From Alphaproteobacteria bacterium MarineAlpha9_Bin6 (GTDB lineage Bacteria > Pseudomonadota > Alphaproteobacteria > UBA7887): a stretch of 50,943 nt of DNA. Below the pieces are notes generated by a model. That model made no database searches, was not told the origin of the DNA, and was given only the letters and a program-made list of their open reading frames with translations. Positions 14,311 to 27,212 of this stretch are shown one piece after another (the stretch's first letter is position 1; every line of letters starts with the position of its first letter). The DNA lies in NCBI GenBank assembly GCA_002937585.1, contig PTKE01000010.1:1-50943 (forward strand), in the 5' to 3' direction. The position numbers and the translations under genes are program-made.

Positions 14311-14406
14311 ATCGATGGGTAGAGAAAATACTGAACGACGTTTGCATCAAATTTCCGCCACCCGCACTATGTCCGCAGATGACGCTAAGAAATAGAAAGC
14401 GTGGCT

Positions 14407-16068
14407 ATGAGCAATGACATCACGATTGGCGACGTAGTTGCCGAATTCCTTCAAGCAATTGGTGTGACCGCCGCTTTTGGTGTGATCTCAGTTCACAACA
14501 CGCCCATGCTCGATGCTATCGGCAGACGCAATGCAATTCGTTTTGTTCGTGCCCGAGGCGAAGCCGGTGCCGGCAGTATGGCTGATGCGTACGCTCGTGT
14601 AACAGGTGGCTTAGGCGTTCTCGTCACCAGCACCGGCCCCGGAGCCGCAAACGCTTGTGGCGCATTGGTGGAAGCCCGTTTCTCAGGAACTCCGCTACTC
14701 CATTTGACCGGACAAACAGCACGCGCAAACGTGGATCGCTGCAGAGGAACCGTCCACGACGTTCCCGATCAATTAGGTATGCTCAAGTCTGTATCCAAGG
14801 CTGCATACAGGGTTCGCTCGCCGGAAAGTATAATCGGAGTGCTCGCACAAGCTGCAACCGAAGCATTAACGTCACCGACTGGTCCGGTGAGCGTGGAAAT
14901 TCCTATTGATGTCCAGCGGACTCATCTGCTCCGCCCAGCCGGATTGGCTGACTTTAAGTTACCCCTCCGGTCACCACACAAACCGGATCCTAGTGGTCTG
15001 GACGAATTCGCCGAAATGGCTGCCAAGGCGCAACGGCCCATGCTTTGGCTGGGCAATGGAGCACGTCATGCCGGTGAGGAAGTTCAGCGTTTCGCTGACA
15101 TGGGTTTCGGGATCATCACAAGCCTCGCCGGACGCGGCGTGATTCCGGAGGACCATCCTTTGGTGATCGGATGCCTCAAAGATATGCGAAAGGTAGAGGA
15201 TTTCTATCAAACGGTGGATCTATTAGTCATTGCCGGATCGCGGGTGCGCGGTCATGAGACGAGAGAATTTGACCTCCGCCTACCTTCTCCACGTATACAA
15301 ATCGATGTTGATCCGGCGGCCAACGGTCGAACTTACACTACAGATCTCTTTTTATGTGCGGACGCTAAATTAGGGCTAGCGGGTCTTGCCGATCGGCTGG
15401 AAGGTAAGATCGAAGTAGAGAACGGTTTCACAGGGGAAGTGAAGGCACTGAAACAAGAAGCAATCGAAGATTACAAATCTTATCTCGGACCTTACCGATC
15501 TTTTGCTGAACGCCTGCGGGCGGTTGCACCGCGCGACGCCCTGTGGGTTCGTGATATTACCCTCAACAATAGTACCTGGGGGAACCGAATTTTCCCACTC
15601 TACGGTCCACGTGACAGCGTCTTCGCACTTGGCGCTGCCATCGGGATCGGGCTTGCACACGGCATTGGGGCTGCTGTGGGCGCTCCGGACAGGAAAGTGC
15701 TGTGTATGTGTGGCGACGGTGGATTTTTTATGGGTTTTGCTGAGTTTTGGACGGCTTCCCAGGAAGGAGCAGACGTTGTCTTCCTAATTATGAATGACGG
15801 TGGTTACGGCGTCATCAAACATATCCAGGACATTTTTCACGGGGGACGGCAGTATTTCGCGGATTTCGGAAATCCAACCCTGGAAGGTTGTGCAAGACTT
15901 GCCAACATGCCGTATTGGCGAGTGAATTCTCCGGATGAACTCGACCCGGCAGTGGCGGCCGCTTTGGAGGTCAATGGCCCAACGCTTGTTGAAGTTGACA
16001 TGTCAAAAGTTGGTGAGTTCCCGCCCTATTTTGTTCCGCCCAAAGCCGACACAAAATACGCACGCTGA
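14407..16068 (+). CDS. Thiamine diphosphate-dependent enzyme, acetolactate synthase large subunit-like
   Basis: The 553-residue protein has the three-domain ThDP fold: an N-terminal pyrimidine-binding domain with the activating Glu in ARGEAGAGSMADAYARV (about residue 52), a central domain (about 190-320), and a C-terminal pyrophosphate domain with the GDG...N metal motif (CGDGGFFMGF ... IMNDGGYG). Such enzymes decarboxylate or ligate 2-oxo acids. It is too divergent to call IlvB, no regulatory subunit is nearby, and the substrate is unknown. I prefer ATG 14407 over GTG 14401 because AGAAAG is seven bases before it. It is transcribed alone and converges on the DUF35/thiolase pair. Confidence 0.9.
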   Translation: MSNDITIGDVVAEFLQAIGVTAAFGVISVHNTPMLDAIGRRNAIRFVRARGEAGAGSMADAYARVTGGLGVLVTSTGPGAANACGALVEARFSGTPLLHLTGQTARANVDRCRGTVHDVPDQLGMLKSVSKAAYRVRSPESIIGVLAQAATEALTSPTGPVSVEIPIDVQRTHLLRPAGLADFKLPLRSPHKPDPSGLDEFAEMAAKAQRPMLWLGNGARHAGEEVQRFADMGFGIITSLAGRGVIPEDHPLVIGCLKDMRKVEDFYQTVDLLVIAGSRVRGHETREFDLRLPSPRIQIDVDPAANGRTYTTDLFLCADAKLGLAGLADRLEGKIEVENGFTGEVKALKQEAIEDYKSYLGPYRSFAERLRAVAPRDALWVRDITLNNSTWGNRIFPLYGPRDSVFALGAAIGIGLAHGIGAAVGAPDRKVLCMCGDGGFFMGFAEFWTASQEGADVVFLIMNDGGYGVIKHIQDIFHGGRQYFADFGNPTLEGCARLANMPYWRVNSPDELDPAVAAALEVNGPTLVEVDMSKVGEFPPYFVPPKADTKYAR

Positions 16069-16114: not shown

Positions 16115-16543
16115 TTATTTTTCCTTACGTAGTTTGAAACGCGCCAACAATTGTTTTTTCGGCCCCTCTTCCCAAGTCACAACGACCTCGCGCCCAATAG
16201 CGAGCTCGTTTGGTGCTGCATCGACAACATTACTGACAAGCCGCAAATCATCCAACCCGTCGAACTCTACTAATACAACATTATATGGAAGAGAATTCAC
16301 TACAGCCTCGTGGGAAGCATTGTACACAATTGTATAACTAAAAATTCGGCCAACAGCAGGGGCATCGACCCAGGTCTTTAACTTTGATTGACAGTGTGGG
16401 CAAATTGGCGTTGGCGGGTGGCGTGGGATCCCACATTGCGCACATGCTTGAAACTTTAAACGACGCTCAGCACAGTGCCGCCAGAAGTCCGTTGCGTCCA
16501 AAGATGGGCCCGGGAAAGGCAAGTTTTTGGGTAAATACGACAA
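16115..16543 (-). CDS. Zn-ribbon/OB-fold (DUF35) protein, thiolase partner
   Basis: This 142-residue DUF35 family protein has an N-terminal zinc ribbon with Cys34, Cys37, Cys48 and Cys51 (ACAQCG ... ICPHCQ) and a C-terminal OB fold (GRIFSYTIVYN ... VTWEEGP). DUF35 proteins form stable complexes with thiolase-superfamily enzymes and help bind acyl-CoA. The TTG start lies two bases after the stop of the thiolase-fold gene, so the two should be made together in fixed proportion. No dehydratase domain is fused to it, unlike some steroid-degrading ChsH2 proteins. Confidence 0.88.
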   Translation of the reverse strand: MSYLPKNLPFPGPSLDATDFWRHCAERRLKFQACAQCGIPRHPPTPICPHCQSKLKTWVDAPAVGRIFSYTIVYNASHEAVVNSLPYNVVLVEFDGLDDLRLVSNVVDAAPNELAIGREVVVTWEEGPKKQLLARFKLRKEK

Positions 16544-16545
16544 GA

Positions 16546-17712
16546 TCAGACCCCCAGGATCAAACCGCTTGTGGGTGTCACGCTCTCACCACCACTCACC
16601 AATACTAAGTTAGCGCCAGAAACCTGGGCGGTAGACTCTCCGCGCATCTGCCTGACTCCTTCCACAACTAAATTTAACCCGTGTATGTACGCTTCTGATA
16701 GAATCCCACCCGAAGTGTTACACGGACTTGCACCGCCAAGACGCAAATTCCCTTCGCTCACGTAATCACCACTTTCCCCAACGCCGCAAAATCCGAAATC
16801 TTCAAGCGCAAACAAAACCATACCGGTAAAAGCATCGTAGAACTGAACAACATCAATATCCTGTGGGCGCACGCCAGCACGCTTATATAAGTCGTGTGCT
16901 AGGTCGGCAGCATTTGCACTTGCATAAGTGTCACTGGGCATGTTGTGCCCACCAAGAATTCCTGTACCCCAGAGGTGTCCACTACTTTGCTGCGCTGCCA
17001 AAATTTCTATTGGCTGGGGTTTGAGGTCGCGTGCGCGCTCATAGGTTGTTATCAGCAAGGCAGCAGCACCATCGCTTTCCAAGCAGCAATCATAAAGCGT
17101 TAAGGGATCCGCAATCATTCTTGATGACAAATAATCGTCCATTGTTAAGCGCCGATCATGCATAACAGCGCGAGGATTTCGATTAGCATATGCCCGACAA
17201 CTCAAAGCCACCTCACCAAGGTGCTCTGGCTGAGTTCCATAAAGGTGCATATGTCGACGAACTAATGGTGCAAACATTTGCGGAGGTGCCAACATACCAA
17301 ATGGTGCAGCAAAACAAGTATGGTCCGTCCAAGGATGAAATTGGCCAAAGCGGAACGCTTGCCCCTGACAAAGAGCTCGGAAGACAATCACATAGTTGGC
17401 TTGGCCACTTTCCACAGCAGCTTGAGCGAGAGCAACCGCACCGCAACTGCCACCACCGCCGCCACCCCAGACCATCCCGGTAAAACGAAGCTGCTCTATG
17501 CCAAGCGCATTCATCAATAGCGCTGGCTCACTCCGGTCATTCGAAAATGAAGCAAAGCCATCAATTTTCTGTGGTGATATTCCAGAGTCACTCGCGGCTG
17601 CTAAAATTGCATCGCATGCTAAGGAAAGTTCGCTTTGATCTTTAATGGCGCCCCATTTCGCATATCGGCTTTCACCAATTCCGACAATGCAGGCACGACT
17701 TTGAACACTCAT
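16546..17712 (-). CDS. Thiolase-superfamily protein (SCP-x/lipid-transfer type), probable aldolase or acyl-CoA enzyme
   Basis: The 388-residue protein has the thiolase double fold and pairs with the DUF35 gene that follows. Aligned by eye on the helix ending in VESG, the usual nucleophilic Cys falls on Gly86, inside a run of six glycines (83-88). Cys90 is four residues off. The C-terminal His motif GHPxG is replaced by SEAYIHG. Two tyrosines, Tyr292 (QFYDAFTG) and Tyr342 (SEAYIHG), lie 50 residues apart in conserved blocks. This fits the Ltp2-like retro-aldolases described for steroid side-chain cleavage better than a true thiolase. The physiological substrate is unknown. Confidence 0.87.
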   Translation of the reverse strand: MSVQSRACIVGIGESRYAKWGAIKDQSELSLACDAILAAASDSGISPQKIDGFASFSNDRSEPALLMNALGIEQLRFTGMVWGGGGGGSCGAVALAQAAVESGQANYVIVFRALCQGQAFRFGQFHPWTDHTCFAAPFGMLAPPQMFAPLVRRHMHLYGTQPEHLGEVALSCRAYANRNPRAVMHDRRLTMDDYLSSRMIADPLTLYDCCLESDGAAALLITTYERARDLKPQPIEILAAQQSSGHLWGTGILGGHNMPSDTYASANAADLAHDLYKRAGVRPQDIDVVQFYDAFTGMVLFALEDFGFCGVGESGDYVSEGNLRLGGASPCNTSGGILSEAYIHGLNLVVEGVRQMRGESTAQVSGANLVLVSGGESVTPTSGLILGV

Positions 17713-17813: not shown

Positions 17814-18803
17814 GTGACTGGAGTGATTAATACCATTGCCGGAACGGGAGAGCGGGGATACACCGGAGACGGTGGCCCAGCAACCGCGGCTCAACTAAGT
17901 GAGCCTTTTATGTGTGAGTTTAACTCCGTGGGCAATCTGTTCATCGTAGAAGCCACCAATCACTGTCTTCGTCGTCTCGATTTGGCTACCGCTACCCTCA
18001 TTACAATAGCCGGCAGTGGCAATGCCGGTTACACAGGCGATGGTGGACCCGCCGACCAAGCCAGTTTCAACGAACCCTACGCTTTACAGGTCGATAAAAA
18101 CGGAGACATATATGTGGTCGATCGACTCAATGCCGCTATCCGAAAGATTACAGCATCGAGTGGTATAATCACCACATTTGCTGGTGGCAAAGGTACAGAC
18201 GCATTCGAAGAGCCTAATGATTGCTTTCTCGATCAGCATGGTGGCCTGTTGGTAGCCGATGTACAAAGCCAACAAATTACACGGGTAGACCTAGCAACAC
18301 GTACCGTCACCCTAGTCGCTGGTGACGGCCAAAAAGCCCGCAAAGGGGACGCTGGACTCGCCCTCAAAGCCAGCATAAAAGGTGCACGCGCTATATGCTT
18401 GGACAGTCAAGGAAATCTCTATATTTGCGAACGAGAAGGAAATGGGATTCGACGGGTTGATGGCGATGGCATCATGTCAACCGTTGCAGGTACCGGCGAG
18501 CGTGGCTATGCCGGAGACGGGGGGCCTGCAGTCGCCTCTACCTGGGATGGTCCTAAAGCTATCCGCTGCGACGCCCAAGACAACTTGATTGTTGTAGATA
18601 CGGAAAATCATGCTGTCCGCCGGATAGACCGAGCGACCTCCATTGTCACCACCGTAGCAGGCGGGCGCCGTGGAAGCGGAGGCGACGGTGGACCCGCAGT
18701 AACTGCCGGGTTAGACCGACCCCACGCCTGCAGCATCGACGGGGATGGCAGCCTCTACATCGCTGACAGCGACAATCACCGCATCCGACGGGTGCAAAGT
18801 TAG
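17814..18803 (+). CDS. NHL-repeat beta-propeller protein
   Basis: The 329-residue protein is built from about five to six NHL-type blades, each with a variant of the motif GTGERGYTGDGGPA followed by a blade ending like LFIVEATNHCLRRLD. Copies of the Gly-rich motif start near residues 9, 67, 173, 226 and 283; the third (GDGQKARKGDAGLA) is degenerate. It has no signal peptide or membrane segment, so it should be cytoplasmic, whereas many NHL proteins are exported. The start is GTG with AGGGAG eight bases upstream. It is divergent from the thiolase gene. The function is unknown; the fold suggests ligand binding or an enzyme of the SMP-30/NHL type. Confidence 0.85.
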   Translation: MTGVINTIAGTGERGYTGDGGPATAAQLSEPFMCEFNSVGNLFIVEATNHCLRRLDLATATLITIAGSGNAGYTGDGGPADQASFNEPYALQVDKNGDIYVVDRLNAAIRKITASSGIITTFAGGKGTDAFEEPNDCFLDQHGGLLVADVQSQQITRVDLATRTVTLVAGDGQKARKGDAGLALKASIKGARAICLDSQGNLYICEREGNGIRRVDGDGIMSTVAGTGERGYAGDGGPAVASTWDGPKAIRCDAQDNLIVVDTENHAVRRIDRATSIVTTVAGGRRGSGGDGGPAVTAGLDRPHACSIDGDGSLYIADSDNHRIRRVQS

Positions 18804-23705: not shown

Positions 23706-24672
23706 ATGACGAACCAAGTAAGAATACTGGCTACACGCCATTACCCCGAGGCTATCGAGCAGCGCCTCGCCCAGGACTACAATGCTACACTTAATCCCCA
23801 GGACCGTTATTTCAACACCAAAGATCTAGTACGAGCATCAAGCGATATGGGCGGTCTGCTGATCTCGGCAAGAGAAACATTCGACGCACAATGCATTATC
23901 GCATTACCACGAAGCGTAGGGATTCTAGGCGCTTATTCTGCAGGAACAGACCATATCGATATAAGTGCCGCGCTCCAACGTGGACTAATCGTAACAAGTA
24001 CCCACGGGGATTTAAAAGAAAAGTGTGCTGATCTTGCGATGCTGTTGCTGCTTAATGCGGCAAGAAGGGCATTCGAGGGTGATCAATTAATTCTTTTCGA
24101 AAATGGATCGGATGGACACCAACGCAATTGCTCGGAATGGGGTTCCAAGCGAAGCGCCTCGGCATCTTGGAGATGGAAGAAATTGACCGCACATCGGCAC
24201 ACCGTGCAACCGCGTTTCGCCTATCCATCCATTATTATAACAGAAAACGCTTGCCCCCCAAAATTGGAAGCTGGCGCAACATGTCATGCCAACCCTGATC
24301 GAATGTTAGGCATCTCTGATTTCCTCTCTCTAAACTGCCCAGCAACGCCAAAGACGGTTGGCTTTTTGAACTGGCCACGGTTTTCTCTTCTTCCGGACCG
24401 GTCCGTCGTCATCAATATCTCTCGTGGGGAATTGATTGACAAAGCAGCACTGAGCAACGCTTTAATCACAGGAAAATTGGCGGCGGCCGGTCTAGATGTC
24501 TTCCAGAACGAACCCAATGTTCGAGCTAACCCACGAGACTTGCCCAATGTTTTTCTCCTGCCACATGCCAGCATGTGCGCCGTTAGATATCCGAATTGCA
24601 ACGGGTATGCCGATTTTGAACGGATTTGACGCCTTTTTCGCCGGACACGAGGTACCAAATCGAATTGTGTAA
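23706..24672 (+). pseudogene. Decayed D-isomer-specific 2-hydroxyacid dehydrogenase
   Basis: An open frame of 307 codons exists (23706-24629), but it splices coding and non-coding segments. Residues 1-135 and about 190-295 fit the family (YSAGTDHIDI, DFLSLNCPATPKT, VVINISRGELID, AAAGLDVFQNEP). Between them, about 24112-24265, the family sequence continues in another frame (WTPTQLLGMGFQAKRLGIL), and the Rossmann motif there is ruined: GxGxxG reads EMEEID. After about 24590 the tail lies in a further frame (NGFDAFFAGHEVPNRIV) and stops at 24670-24672. The protein made from the open frame would have no nucleotide-binding site. Relatives are glyoxylate/hydroxypyruvate-reductase-like. Confidence 0.85.
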
Positions 24673-24770: not shown

Positions 24771-26429
24771 TTACTTTCTGGGAGAACTAGACAGAGCGCT
24801 AAAACGCACCGCAAGTGGTGTGAACCCCCCCCGATCCATCTGCTGAATAAGGGCGCGTTTCAATATCTTACCACTCGCAGTTAAAGGAAAATCAGGCAGC
24901 ACTGCGTAATATTCCGGCATGTCATAGATAGACAGGCCAGACGAGTGCAAGAAACTGAGGATTTTATCCGGTTCGGGCATGTCGCCAGCCGCAGGTACGA
25001 TCGTCAGACAAACTTTTTCACCAAGCCTCTTATCCGCTACTGGTATTACCGCTGCCTTTTCGATCGCCGGATGCCGCACCGCTAGGTCTTCTATCTTGCG
25101 AGGATGAATGTTTCGGCCTCCTCGTATAATGATTTCTTTGAGCCTGCCAACAACTTCCAAGTTTCCTGATGAATCAAGCCGTCCTAGGTCGCCACTCATG
25201 AACCAACCATCTCGATTAAAGGAGTTCTCGGTTGAAGTTTGATCACCAAAATAGCCCAGCATCAATGCCGCACCTCGACCCCCTATTTCTCCAACCTCTC
25301 CCACTGCCAAGGATTGGTCCCTATCATCCGGATCAAAAATCTTTACCTGGTAAGACGGGCCGCCTCGACCACAAGTCGAAACAATGGTGTCAGTATCGTC
25401 TTCAGGATGGGTATACTGATGCGAAGAATTTTCAGTCATTCCGTAGACATTTTGAGGCGTAATACCTTGTGAGAAAAACTCCTCCGCAATTGTTCGGGGA
25501 ATTGGTGCTCCCGCCATATAAAAAACTTTTATCGACCCAAAAGAATCTGAACACCGTGCACGCTGCTGCGCGAGAAGGTCTATCGCATGAGTGGGTACGC
25601 CCATTACATAGCTTGCGCGCACTTCACTAATCCAATCGAAAGATTCCATACCTTCGGAGGGATCATTAACTACAAATTCCGCTCCTGCAATTAGGGCCTG
25701 AGCAAAACCAACCCACGCAATGTGATGTGAAAGCGGACTCAACGAAAGTAGAACCGTATCCCGACCGTGGCGCCAATCCGTTACTAAATCTCGCGCGTTG
25801 GCGAGGATAGTATTGTCGCTGTGCATTACACCTTTTGGCTTTCCGGTGGTGCCGGATGTAAAGGCGAGGTAACAAATTTTGTCCGCGCCCAAGTCAGGGA
25901 GCACAGAATTATCAGTTCCGTCCTCCCAACTTGGTAAATCTTCTGACCGCCCCCGTTTTTTAGGAATTAAAAAGCAAGCACGATGCGTGGTTTTTTCCCG
26001 AATCAACTCAATCAAATCACCCCCGTCTGCACTCCATCCTTTCTCAGCTATTACCGCGGCAGCGTCGATTTCATTAACAAGTGACAACATTTCAGAAACT
26101 GTATAATTCCGGTGCAGCGAGGGGTTACAGATATATCCATTTCGGGAGCAAGCCAACATCACTACTACCGATTCCACCCGGTTTGACAGTGCCATCGCCA
26201 CTCGATCACCAGCTGTCAGACCAGCTTCTGCTAATGTGCCAGCGATTGCCCGAGACCATTGCTCTACCTGGCGCCAGGTAAGGCGCCTCCCGCTATCGCG
26301 AAGTGCATAATCATCCGGGATCGTCCTCGCCTGACGTGCAGCATGGTCGTATAACCCCTCGTCACGCCAAAGGCCTTGCTCGTAATAACGTCTGGCAGTT
26401 ATCGGGTCATGGAGGGTCAACAACGGCAT
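24771..26429 (-). CDS. AMP-forming acyl-CoA ligase (cyclohexanecarboxylate-CoA ligase-like)
   Basis: The 552-residue ANL-superfamily enzyme activates a carboxylic acid to its CoA thioester through an acyl-AMP. Motifs in order: P-loop FTSGTTGKPKGVMHS (about 196-210), YGMTENS (about 346), SGDLGRLD (about 425), hinge GRLKEIIIRGGRNIHP, and the C-terminal catalytic Lys in LTASGKILKRAL. The sequence resembles cyclohexanecarboxylate-CoA ligases of the AliA group. It starts three bases after the stop of the BadI-like crotonase, so both are co-translated. Together they suggest use of an alicyclic or related acid. Confidence 0.87.
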   Translation of the reverse strand: MPLLTLHDPITARRYYEQGLWRDEGLYDHAARQARTIPDDYALRDSGRRLTWRQVEQWSRAIAGTLAEAGLTAGDRVAMALSNRVESVVVMLACSRNGYICNPSLHRNYTVSEMLSLVNEIDAAAVIAEKGWSADGGDLIELIREKTTHRACFLIPKKRGRSEDLPSWEDGTDNSVLPDLGADKICYLAFTSGTTGKPKGVMHSDNTILANARDLVTDWRHGRDTVLLSLSPLSHHIAWVGFAQALIAGAEFVVNDPSEGMESFDWISEVRASYVMGVPTHAIDLLAQQRARCSDSFGSIKVFYMAGAPIPRTIAEEFFSQGITPQNVYGMTENSSHQYTHPEDDTDTIVSTCGRGGPSYQVKIFDPDDRDQSLAVGEVGEIGGRGAALMLGYFGDQTSTENSFNRDGWFMSGDLGRLDSSGNLEVVGRLKEIIIRGGRNIHPRKIEDLAVRHPAIEKAAVIPVADKRLGEKVCLTIVPAAGDMPEPDKILSFLHSSGLSIYDMPEYYAVLPDFPLTASGKILKRALIQQMDRGGFTPLAVRFSALSSSPRK

Positions 26430-26432
26430 TTA

Positions 26433-27212
26433 TTAGTGGCCGAATTTATCCGTGTTCGGAGGACGTTTTTCACCGAACGCAGCACTCAACTCTGCCGCTT
26501 CCTCACTATTAAGGTACTGGCGCAACAGCAAATCGTGCGCTAGGCGAGCGAGTCCACCAACGCCCCCATGACGCGCGTTGAACGAGGCCTTTAGTGAAGC
26601 CAGAGCAACCGAACCACGGGCAGCCACCTCCAGAGCATAATCTCGCGTTGCTCCCTCAAGCTCCTCATCCGGGACTACCCGATTAATCAGGCCCATCTCA
26701 CGAGCATCTTCCGCAGTTAGCTTCGGGTTGGTGTACCACATTTCCTTCGCTCGCTTCTTTCCAACCAAATCCTCCAGATACCAAGTGCCATATCCAGCAT
26801 CGAATGAGCCCATCATCGGTCCCACTTGCCGAAAAATTGCGCTTTCCTTTGCAATGGTCAGGTCGCAAACCATTTGCAACACATTCCCGCCCCCAACAGC
26901 AAACCCGTTTACGCTGGCAATGACCGGTTTTTGAGTCTTGTCTATTGCTTCATACATTTCCAAGGTAGGCAACACACCCGCATAAAGGTTTGTATCCTCC
27001 ATGCCCTCTTTACGACCACCTATACAGAAAAACTTGTTCCCAGCGCCGCTCAATACCAATACTTTAGTACGTGTTTCTCGGCTGGAATCATTTACACAAT
27101 CACGAATCTCGTGACACATGATCGGTGTGAACATGTTCCCATCTTTAGGGCGGTTAAGGGTCAACCAAGCAATTGGCCCATCTTCTCGATATAGAATTTC
27201 GGTGTATGCCAC
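26433..27212 (-). CDS. Crotonase-family protein, BadI/MenB-like ring hydrolase or cyclase
   Basis: The 259-residue crotonase is closest in pattern to BadI (2-ketocyclohexanecarboxyl-CoA hydrolase) and MenB rather than to plain enoyl-CoA hydratases. It has VNGFAVGGGNVLQMVCDLTIA, IFRQVGPMMGSFDAGYGTWYLE and the following KRAKEMWY. The GSFDAGYG loop is typical of ring-opening or ring-closing crotonases. The usual pair of catalytic Glu residues of hydratases is absent. It starts with GTG after a strong GGGGAGG, 30 bases from a 12-bp palindrome, and is the first gene of a two-gene operon with the ligase. The substrate is inferred, not shown. Confidence 0.86.
   Translation of the reverse strand: MAYTEILYREDGPIAWLTLNRPKDGNMFTPIMCHEIRDCVNDSSRETRTKVLVLSGAGNKFFCIGGRKEGMEDTNLYAGVLPTLEMYEAIDKTQKPVIASVNGFAVGGGNVLQMVCDLTIAKESAIFRQVGPMMGSFDAGYGTWYLEDLVGKKRAKEMWYTNPKLTAEDAREMGLINRVVPDEELEGATRDYALEVAARGSVALASLKASFNARHGGVGGLARLAHDLLLRQYLNSEEAAELSAAFGEKRPPNTDKFGH

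Follow-up and report, generated by a model that had tools for sequence, protein, structure and literature searches.

A thiolase-fold/DUF35 gene pair of a marine alphaproteobacterium predicted to encode an Ltp2-like acyl-CoA retro-aldolase

Gene pair and fold

Two neighbouring genes on the reverse strand of contig PTKE01000010.1 from Alphaproteobacteria bacterium MarineAlpha9_Bin6 (positions 1 to 50,943, the 50,943-nucleotide stretch analysed here and referred to as the window) encode a thiolase-fold catalytic subunit of 388 amino acids (aa; 16546–17712), predicted to be an Ltp2-like acyl-coenzyme A (acyl-CoA) retro-aldolase, and a DUF35 partner of 142 aa (16115–16543), which consists of a zinc ribbon (zf-ChsH2) and an OB fold (OB_ChsH2_C) and begins at a TTG codon. 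An original prediction, made from the sequence of the window alone, had described the pair as a likely retro-aldolase with a repurposed thiolase active site and a DUF35 partner that begins two bases downstream; the open reading frames, their strand and the 2-bp gap between the thiolase-fold gene and the DUF35 gene are as described there.

Both genes are real and under purifying selection. The TTG start of the DUF35 gene is backed by ATG, GTG, ATG and ATG at the identical codon in four orthologues, and three congeners keep both genes in synteny, with identities of 82–84% for the thiolase-fold protein and 66–76% for DUF35. The ratios of nonsynonymous to synonymous substitution rates (dN/dS) relative to the nearest congeners are ~0.05 and ~0.14, respectively, with synonymous sites close to saturation. 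The zinc ribbon of the DUF35 protein, Cys34-X2-Cys37 ... Cys48-X2-Cys51 (16391–16444, reverse strand), is kept in the clade to which the pair belongs and lost in IpfE, the DUF35 protein of an ibuprofen-degrading system.

The closest structure to both subunits is 6ok1, the Ltp2-ChsH2(DUF35) aldolase, which is the top phmmer match in the PDB for the thiolase-fold protein (E = 3.5e-81) and for DUF35 (E = 1.2e-21). Structure prediction, proposed as a check alongside the original prediction, leads to the same entry: Foldseek ranks 6ok1 first for the single-chain AlphaFold models of both the thiolase-fold protein (predicted local distance difference test (pLDDT) 86.9, predicted template modelling score (pTM) 0.90) and DUF35 (pLDDT 88.4), with template modelling (TM) scores of 0.91 against chain A/C and 0.82 against chain B/D, respectively. 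Sal (9myr) and every true thiolase come lower in these rankings. The best NCBIfam model for this protein is PRK07855, at 391.9 bits and below the cut-off of 469.

Active site and proposed reaction

Residue equivalences were taken from a MAFFT alignment with SCP2 thiolase (6hsj), Sal of Comamonas testosteroni (CtSal) and Ltp2 of Thermomonospora curvata (TcLtp2), the columns of which reproduce the published residue numbering and roles (PMC12329534). The invariant Gly86 (codon 17455–17457) lies within the run Gly83–Gly88, which is followed by Ser89–Cys90, and shares its column with the nucleophilic Cys of SCP2 thiolase, Gly89 of CtSal and Gly83 of TcLtp2, in agreement with the original placing of this residue at the nucleophile position of a six-glycine run; in the AlphaFold model it caps the helix 85–102. 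Tyr292 (codon 16837–16839), the predicted catalytic base, aligns with TcLtp2 Tyr294, CtSal Tyr302 and the His of the SCP2-thiolase HDCF motif, while Tyr342 (codon 16687–16689), the predicted catalytic acid, aligns with TcLtp2 Tyr344, CtSal Gln352 and the His of the SCP2-thiolase GHP motif. Tyr294 and Tyr344 are the proven catalytic pair of T. curvata Ltp2 (PMC12329534). Gly86, Tyr292 and Tyr342 are shared by 37 of 37 homologues. The two tyrosines had been noticed in conserved blocks, and the C-terminal motif is SEAYIHG, as described before.

Measured against the signatures of the three reference families, the thiolase-fold protein has Gly86, Tyr292 and Tyr342 in place of the nucleophilic Cys and the HDCF and GHP histidines of SCP2 thiolase, and Ala294 in place of the catalytic Cys in the YDCY motif of Sal. 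The tyrosine pair of Ltp2 is present, while its YDHF motif, with the oxyanion-hole His, reads YDAF. Three features of the broad retro-aldolase group (Ltp2, Sal, IpfD) are found, namely a Gly for the nucleophilic Cys, a YDxF Tyr base and a dedicated DUF35 partner. This pattern supports a loss of thiolase chemistry in this protein, through loss of the nucleophile.

The change from YDHF to YDAF, which the original prediction does not mention, results from Ala294 (codon 16831–16833) in place of the Ltp2 oxyanion-hole residue His296. Position 294 is variable in the 37-sequence alignment (H in 15, A in 14, N in 6 and D in 2), and a search for a correlation between Ala294 and His154, as a possible compensating residue, gave no consistent pattern. 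In TcLtp2, His296 helps to stabilise the enolate, and its replacement costs only ~14-fold (PMC12329534); Ala294 is thus compatible with aldolase function. The YDAF motif and the second tyrosine also occur together in IpfD, a retro-aldolase of the ibuprofen pathway.

Retro-aldol chemistry is the best reading of the pair, since the tyrosine pair matches that of TcLtp2, Gly86 occupies the nucleophile site and both models are closest to 6ok1. Sequence, fold and phylogeny thus all back the original prediction, and the two proteins very probably form a heteromeric, Ltp2-DUF35-type acyl-CoA retro-aldolase. What was computed is the fold, the identity of the residues, the pairing, the position in the tree and the absences across the genome; the activity, its direction, the stoichiometry and the substrate class are inferred, and what the tyrosines, the Gly amide and DUF35 do is taken from the published work on TcLtp2 and CtSal. 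The complex would most likely contain two plus two subunits. The thiolase-fold subunit would bind the CoA thioester of a beta-hydroxy acid, the beta-hydroxyl of which would probably be held by the backbone amide of Gly86 in the space of the thiolase Cys. Tyr292 would take the proton of the beta-hydroxyl, the alpha-beta C-C bond would then break, and Tyr342 would protonate the enolate, yielding a short acyl-CoA (acetyl- or propionyl-CoA, with two or three carbons) and an aldehyde or ketone. With no His at position 294, the enolate would have to be held by backbone amides or by another side chain. DUF35 would shape the substrate cleft and is probably needed for activity; in C. testosteroni, DUF35 is indispensable for the Ltp2 aldolase (PMC12502768).

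Several points weigh against this assignment. With Ala294, the active site is short of one of the elements of Ltp2, and CtSal was abolished by the corresponding replacement (Cys304Ala), although Cys304 is the CtSal acid. The AlphaFold models describe each subunit alone rather than the complex, and no assay of any member of the clade was found in the open-access literature. No substrate-specific partner adjoins the pair, and a 74% identical orthologue (L041) stands beside gyrB and a penicillin-binding protein gene.

Phylogeny and characterised relatives

In a maximum-likelihood tree of 63 proteins (support values given as pairs), the thiolase-fold protein and TcLtp2 both fall within a group of 38 rows that carry the two tyrosines (96/98). 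Within this group the thiolase-fold protein belongs to a 19-row clade (100/98), referred to here as the query clade, and TcLtp2 to a separate 12-row clade (100/99); the branch that unites them is weak (85/50), and the query clade is therefore a weakly supported sister group of the Ltp2 clade. The phylogeny suggested with the original prediction thus places the protein among the Tyr-Tyr enzymes with TcLtp2, apart from the characterised Ltp2 clade. IpfD lies on a long branch outside the Ltp2-like group, its exact placement being unsure.

Gene architecture also differs between the two clades. DUF35 is a separate gene, at most 110 bp downstream, in 52 of the 61 loci of the query type, whereas in those loci of the Ltp2 clade that a Pfam check covered it forms the C-terminal portion of a fusion with a dehydratase (ChsH2-like). 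That no dehydratase is fused to DUF35 is therefore a character of the clade rather than a peculiarity of this locus. The original prediction had argued from this absence that the substrate may be new; the absence is real, but the argument loses its force in view of the 52 loci and the precedent of IpfD/IpfE. The substrate of the pair may nevertheless be new. Thiolase-fold/DUF35 retro-aldolases, including the non-steroid IpfD/IpfE, are already known.

Compared with TcLtp2-ChsH2(DUF35), a steroid C3 side-chain aldolase with ~41% identity, the pair shares both folds, the tyrosine pair, the Gly at the nucleophile site, the EAYIHG motif and a zinc-ribbon DUF35. It differs in the Ala that replaces the His of YDHF, in a DUF35 encoded by its own gene rather than within a MaoC fusion, in its clade, and in a genome that lacks the ChsH2 fusion, a KshA-type Rieske protein and a steroid context. 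More distant is Sal-Shy(DUF35) of C. testosteroni (9myr), a bile acid C5 side-chain aldolase (28% identity, separate clade), which has the same fold, a Gly at the nucleophile site (Gly89), the Tyr302 base and a DUF35 partner; however, the acid Cys304 of CtSal corresponds to Ala294 and its Gln352 to Tyr342, and the DUF35 of Shy is fused to MaoC.

A non-steroid precedent is provided by IpfD/IpfE, which removes propionyl-CoA from dihydroxylated ibuprofen-CoA in a retro-aldolase step, IpfD being genetically required for side-chain removal from ibuprofen-CoA (PMC9195938, PMC6063337). These proteins were identified on pIBU218 of Rhizorhabdus wittichii MPO218 by a gene order (CoA ligase, OB-fold protein, thiolase-like protein, dioxygenase subunits) that matches the published ipfABDEF cluster. 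The separate DUF35 gene, the YDAF motif and the Tyr at position 342 are common to both systems, but identity is only 33%, IpfE lacks the zinc-ribbon Cys residues, and the ibuprofen route needs a Rieske dioxygenase that is not in the genome studied here. Closer relatives are the plasmid-borne pairs of Variovorax, Delftia and Burkholderia plantarii (L120, L121, L126), which have genes for Rieske oxygenases and CoA transferases as neighbours. They share the 19-row clade (L121 and L126 are in the tree), the tyrosine pair, the six-Gly run and an adjoining DUF35 gene; unlike the query protein, they have YENF or YDSF, and their Rieske/CoA-transferase context is not in its genome. In a further plasmid-borne relative, from Paraburkholderia (L119), an SMP-30/gluconolactonase gene stands just after the thiolase gene.

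Genomic context, substrate and alternative readings

Within the genus, the genes around the pair share their synteny with housekeeping genes (topoisomerase I, ribonuclease R and a DNA polymerase IV-like gene). A thiamine pyrophosphate (TPP) enzyme, a major facilitator superfamily transporter and an NHL protein were considered as pathway partners and rejected: their conservation runs along with that of the housekeeping genes and they are not seen beside L041, so that synteny gives no functional link. The local context thus names no substrate. The TPP enzyme (14401–16068, forward strand; PRK07064 family) is 88% identical in a congener and convergent with the DUF35 gene, and the NHL beta-propeller protein (17814–18803, forward strand) is divergent from the thiolase-fold gene.

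Across the clade, recurrent neighbours include CoA ligases, CoA transferases, acyl-CoA dehydrogenases, TRAP or TctC carboxylate transporters and Rieske oxygenases; the locus survey, annotated through matches to reference proteins chosen by hand, gives a lower bound. These genes suggest that the clade acts on small carboxylic acids, aromatic or alicyclic. They also bear on the direction of the reaction, for which synthesis is the alternative: with the same active site, an acyl-CoA enolate could be added to an aldehyde or ketone. Aldol reactions are reversible, biosynthetic thiolase-DUF35 assemblies exist (6esq, PhlABC), and in this genus the pair is not embedded in a dedicated catabolic operon; however, the Tyr-type relatives of studied function that were found (Ltp2, IpfD) are all degradative and the CoA ligases, acyl-CoA dehydrogenases and carboxylate transporters of the clade are catabolic, which makes a synthetic role unlikely.

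Steroid degradation was considered at the level of the whole genome (2.38 Mb, 98.6% complete). Genome-wide, there is no MaoC-DUF35 fusion of the ChsH2 or Shy type, the three DUF35 genes having frames too short for one, and five separate MaoC proteins are encoded. A full-size Rieske oxygenase (KshA/IpfA type) is likewise absent from the genome as assembled, which has only two small Rieske proteins (open frames of 209 and 115 aa); for steroid-degradation genes, the finding is that the assembly holds no KshA-type Rieske protein, other steroid genes not having been searched individually. In a genome of this completeness, these absences make a steroid or ibuprofen-type substrate unlikely, and the substrate is probably non-steroid, consistent with the original statement that no steroid cluster is present. 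That the pair is a true Ltp2 acting on the side chains of steroids, in a genome whose assembly has missed the other pathway genes, is accordingly very improbable: Ltp2 is the nearest characterised relative and PRK07855 the best NCBIfam model, but the pair belongs to a separate clade with a stand-alone DUF35, Ltp2-clade loci have ChsH2-like fusions, and the idea that steroid genes lie at other places in the genome was rejected on the absence of both the fusion and the full-size Rieske protein.

The idea that Cys90 (codon 17443–17445) or another Cys still supports some thiolase or Claisen chemistry can be given hardly any weight. The protein has a thiolase fold and Cys90 is kept in 26 of the 37 homologues, yet it lies four residues beyond the nucleophile position, one turn inside the helix capped by Gly86, and is S, A, V or F in the other 11; on alignment and helix position, the thiolase reading through this residue was rejected, Cys90 at the nucleophile site being the outcome that would have told against the original prediction. 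Furthermore, both His positions of SCP2 thiolase are Tyr, and the proven aldolase TcLtp2 has an equivalent Cys (Cys87). Equally remote is another reaction of an acyl-CoA enolate, such as decarboxylation, or a non-catalytic lipid-binding role, for although TbSLP, which lacks the nucleophile, decarboxylates malonyl-CoA very slowly (PMC12329534) and many relatives are annotated 'lipid-transfer protein', the Ltp2 tyrosine pair and the DUF35 partner are strictly conserved and CtSal does not decarboxylate malonyl-CoA (PMC12329534).

Beyond the retro-aldolase assignment itself, a wider picture can be drawn for which the case is evenly balanced. The clade would form its own branch of Tyr-Tyr retro-aldolases with a stand-alone DUF35, and its substrates would be small acids other than steroids. 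Position 294 of these enzymes would be unconstrained (A, H, N, D), another group stabilising the enolate in place of the oxyanion-hole residue; in the marine genus, the pair would cleave a beta-hydroxyacyl-CoA supplied by no known pathway.

Elsewhere in the window, an acyl-CoA ligase gene is followed by one for a MenB/BadI-like crotonase of the ring-closing or ring-opening type (24771–27212, reverse strand); the two are kept in congeners and may handle an alicyclic acid. The crotonase (26433–27212) was considered as the missing hydratase and set aside, as a MenB/BadI-like protein is no obvious hydratase. A D-2-hydroxyacid dehydrogenase gene (23706–24629, forward strand), the middle of which (~residues 130–190) is apparently out of frame, has no counterpart seen between the same neighbours in a congener (L038) and is possibly a frameshifted or decaying insertion. 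The same genome encodes two further thiolase-like proteins (L006 and L005), each adjoining a DUF35 gene, with Gly at the nucleophile position, the YDxF Tyr and His at the second position, which represent a second, 4u4e-like type. In Sneathiella (L048, L094), a single locus combines two Tyr-Tyr thiolase-like genes and two DUF35 genes with a CoA ligase, an IclR regulator and a TRAP transporter, and is a promising place for finding the substrate of the clade.

Proteins of this group are often annotated as 'acetyl-CoA acetyltransferase', 'lipid-transfer protein' or 'thiolase', and for the query clade such names are probably wrong, because its members have the tyrosine pair of Ltp2 and no thiolase nucleophile. 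The clade ranges over Proteobacteria, Myxococcota/Deltaproteobacteria, Acidimicrobiia, Chloroflexi and Halococcus. Should its members prove to be retro-aldolases, a whole clade beside Ltp2 would consist of uncharacterised C-C bond-cleaving enzymes, which would serve acids unable to complete ordinary beta-oxidation and would be a source of new biocatalysts.
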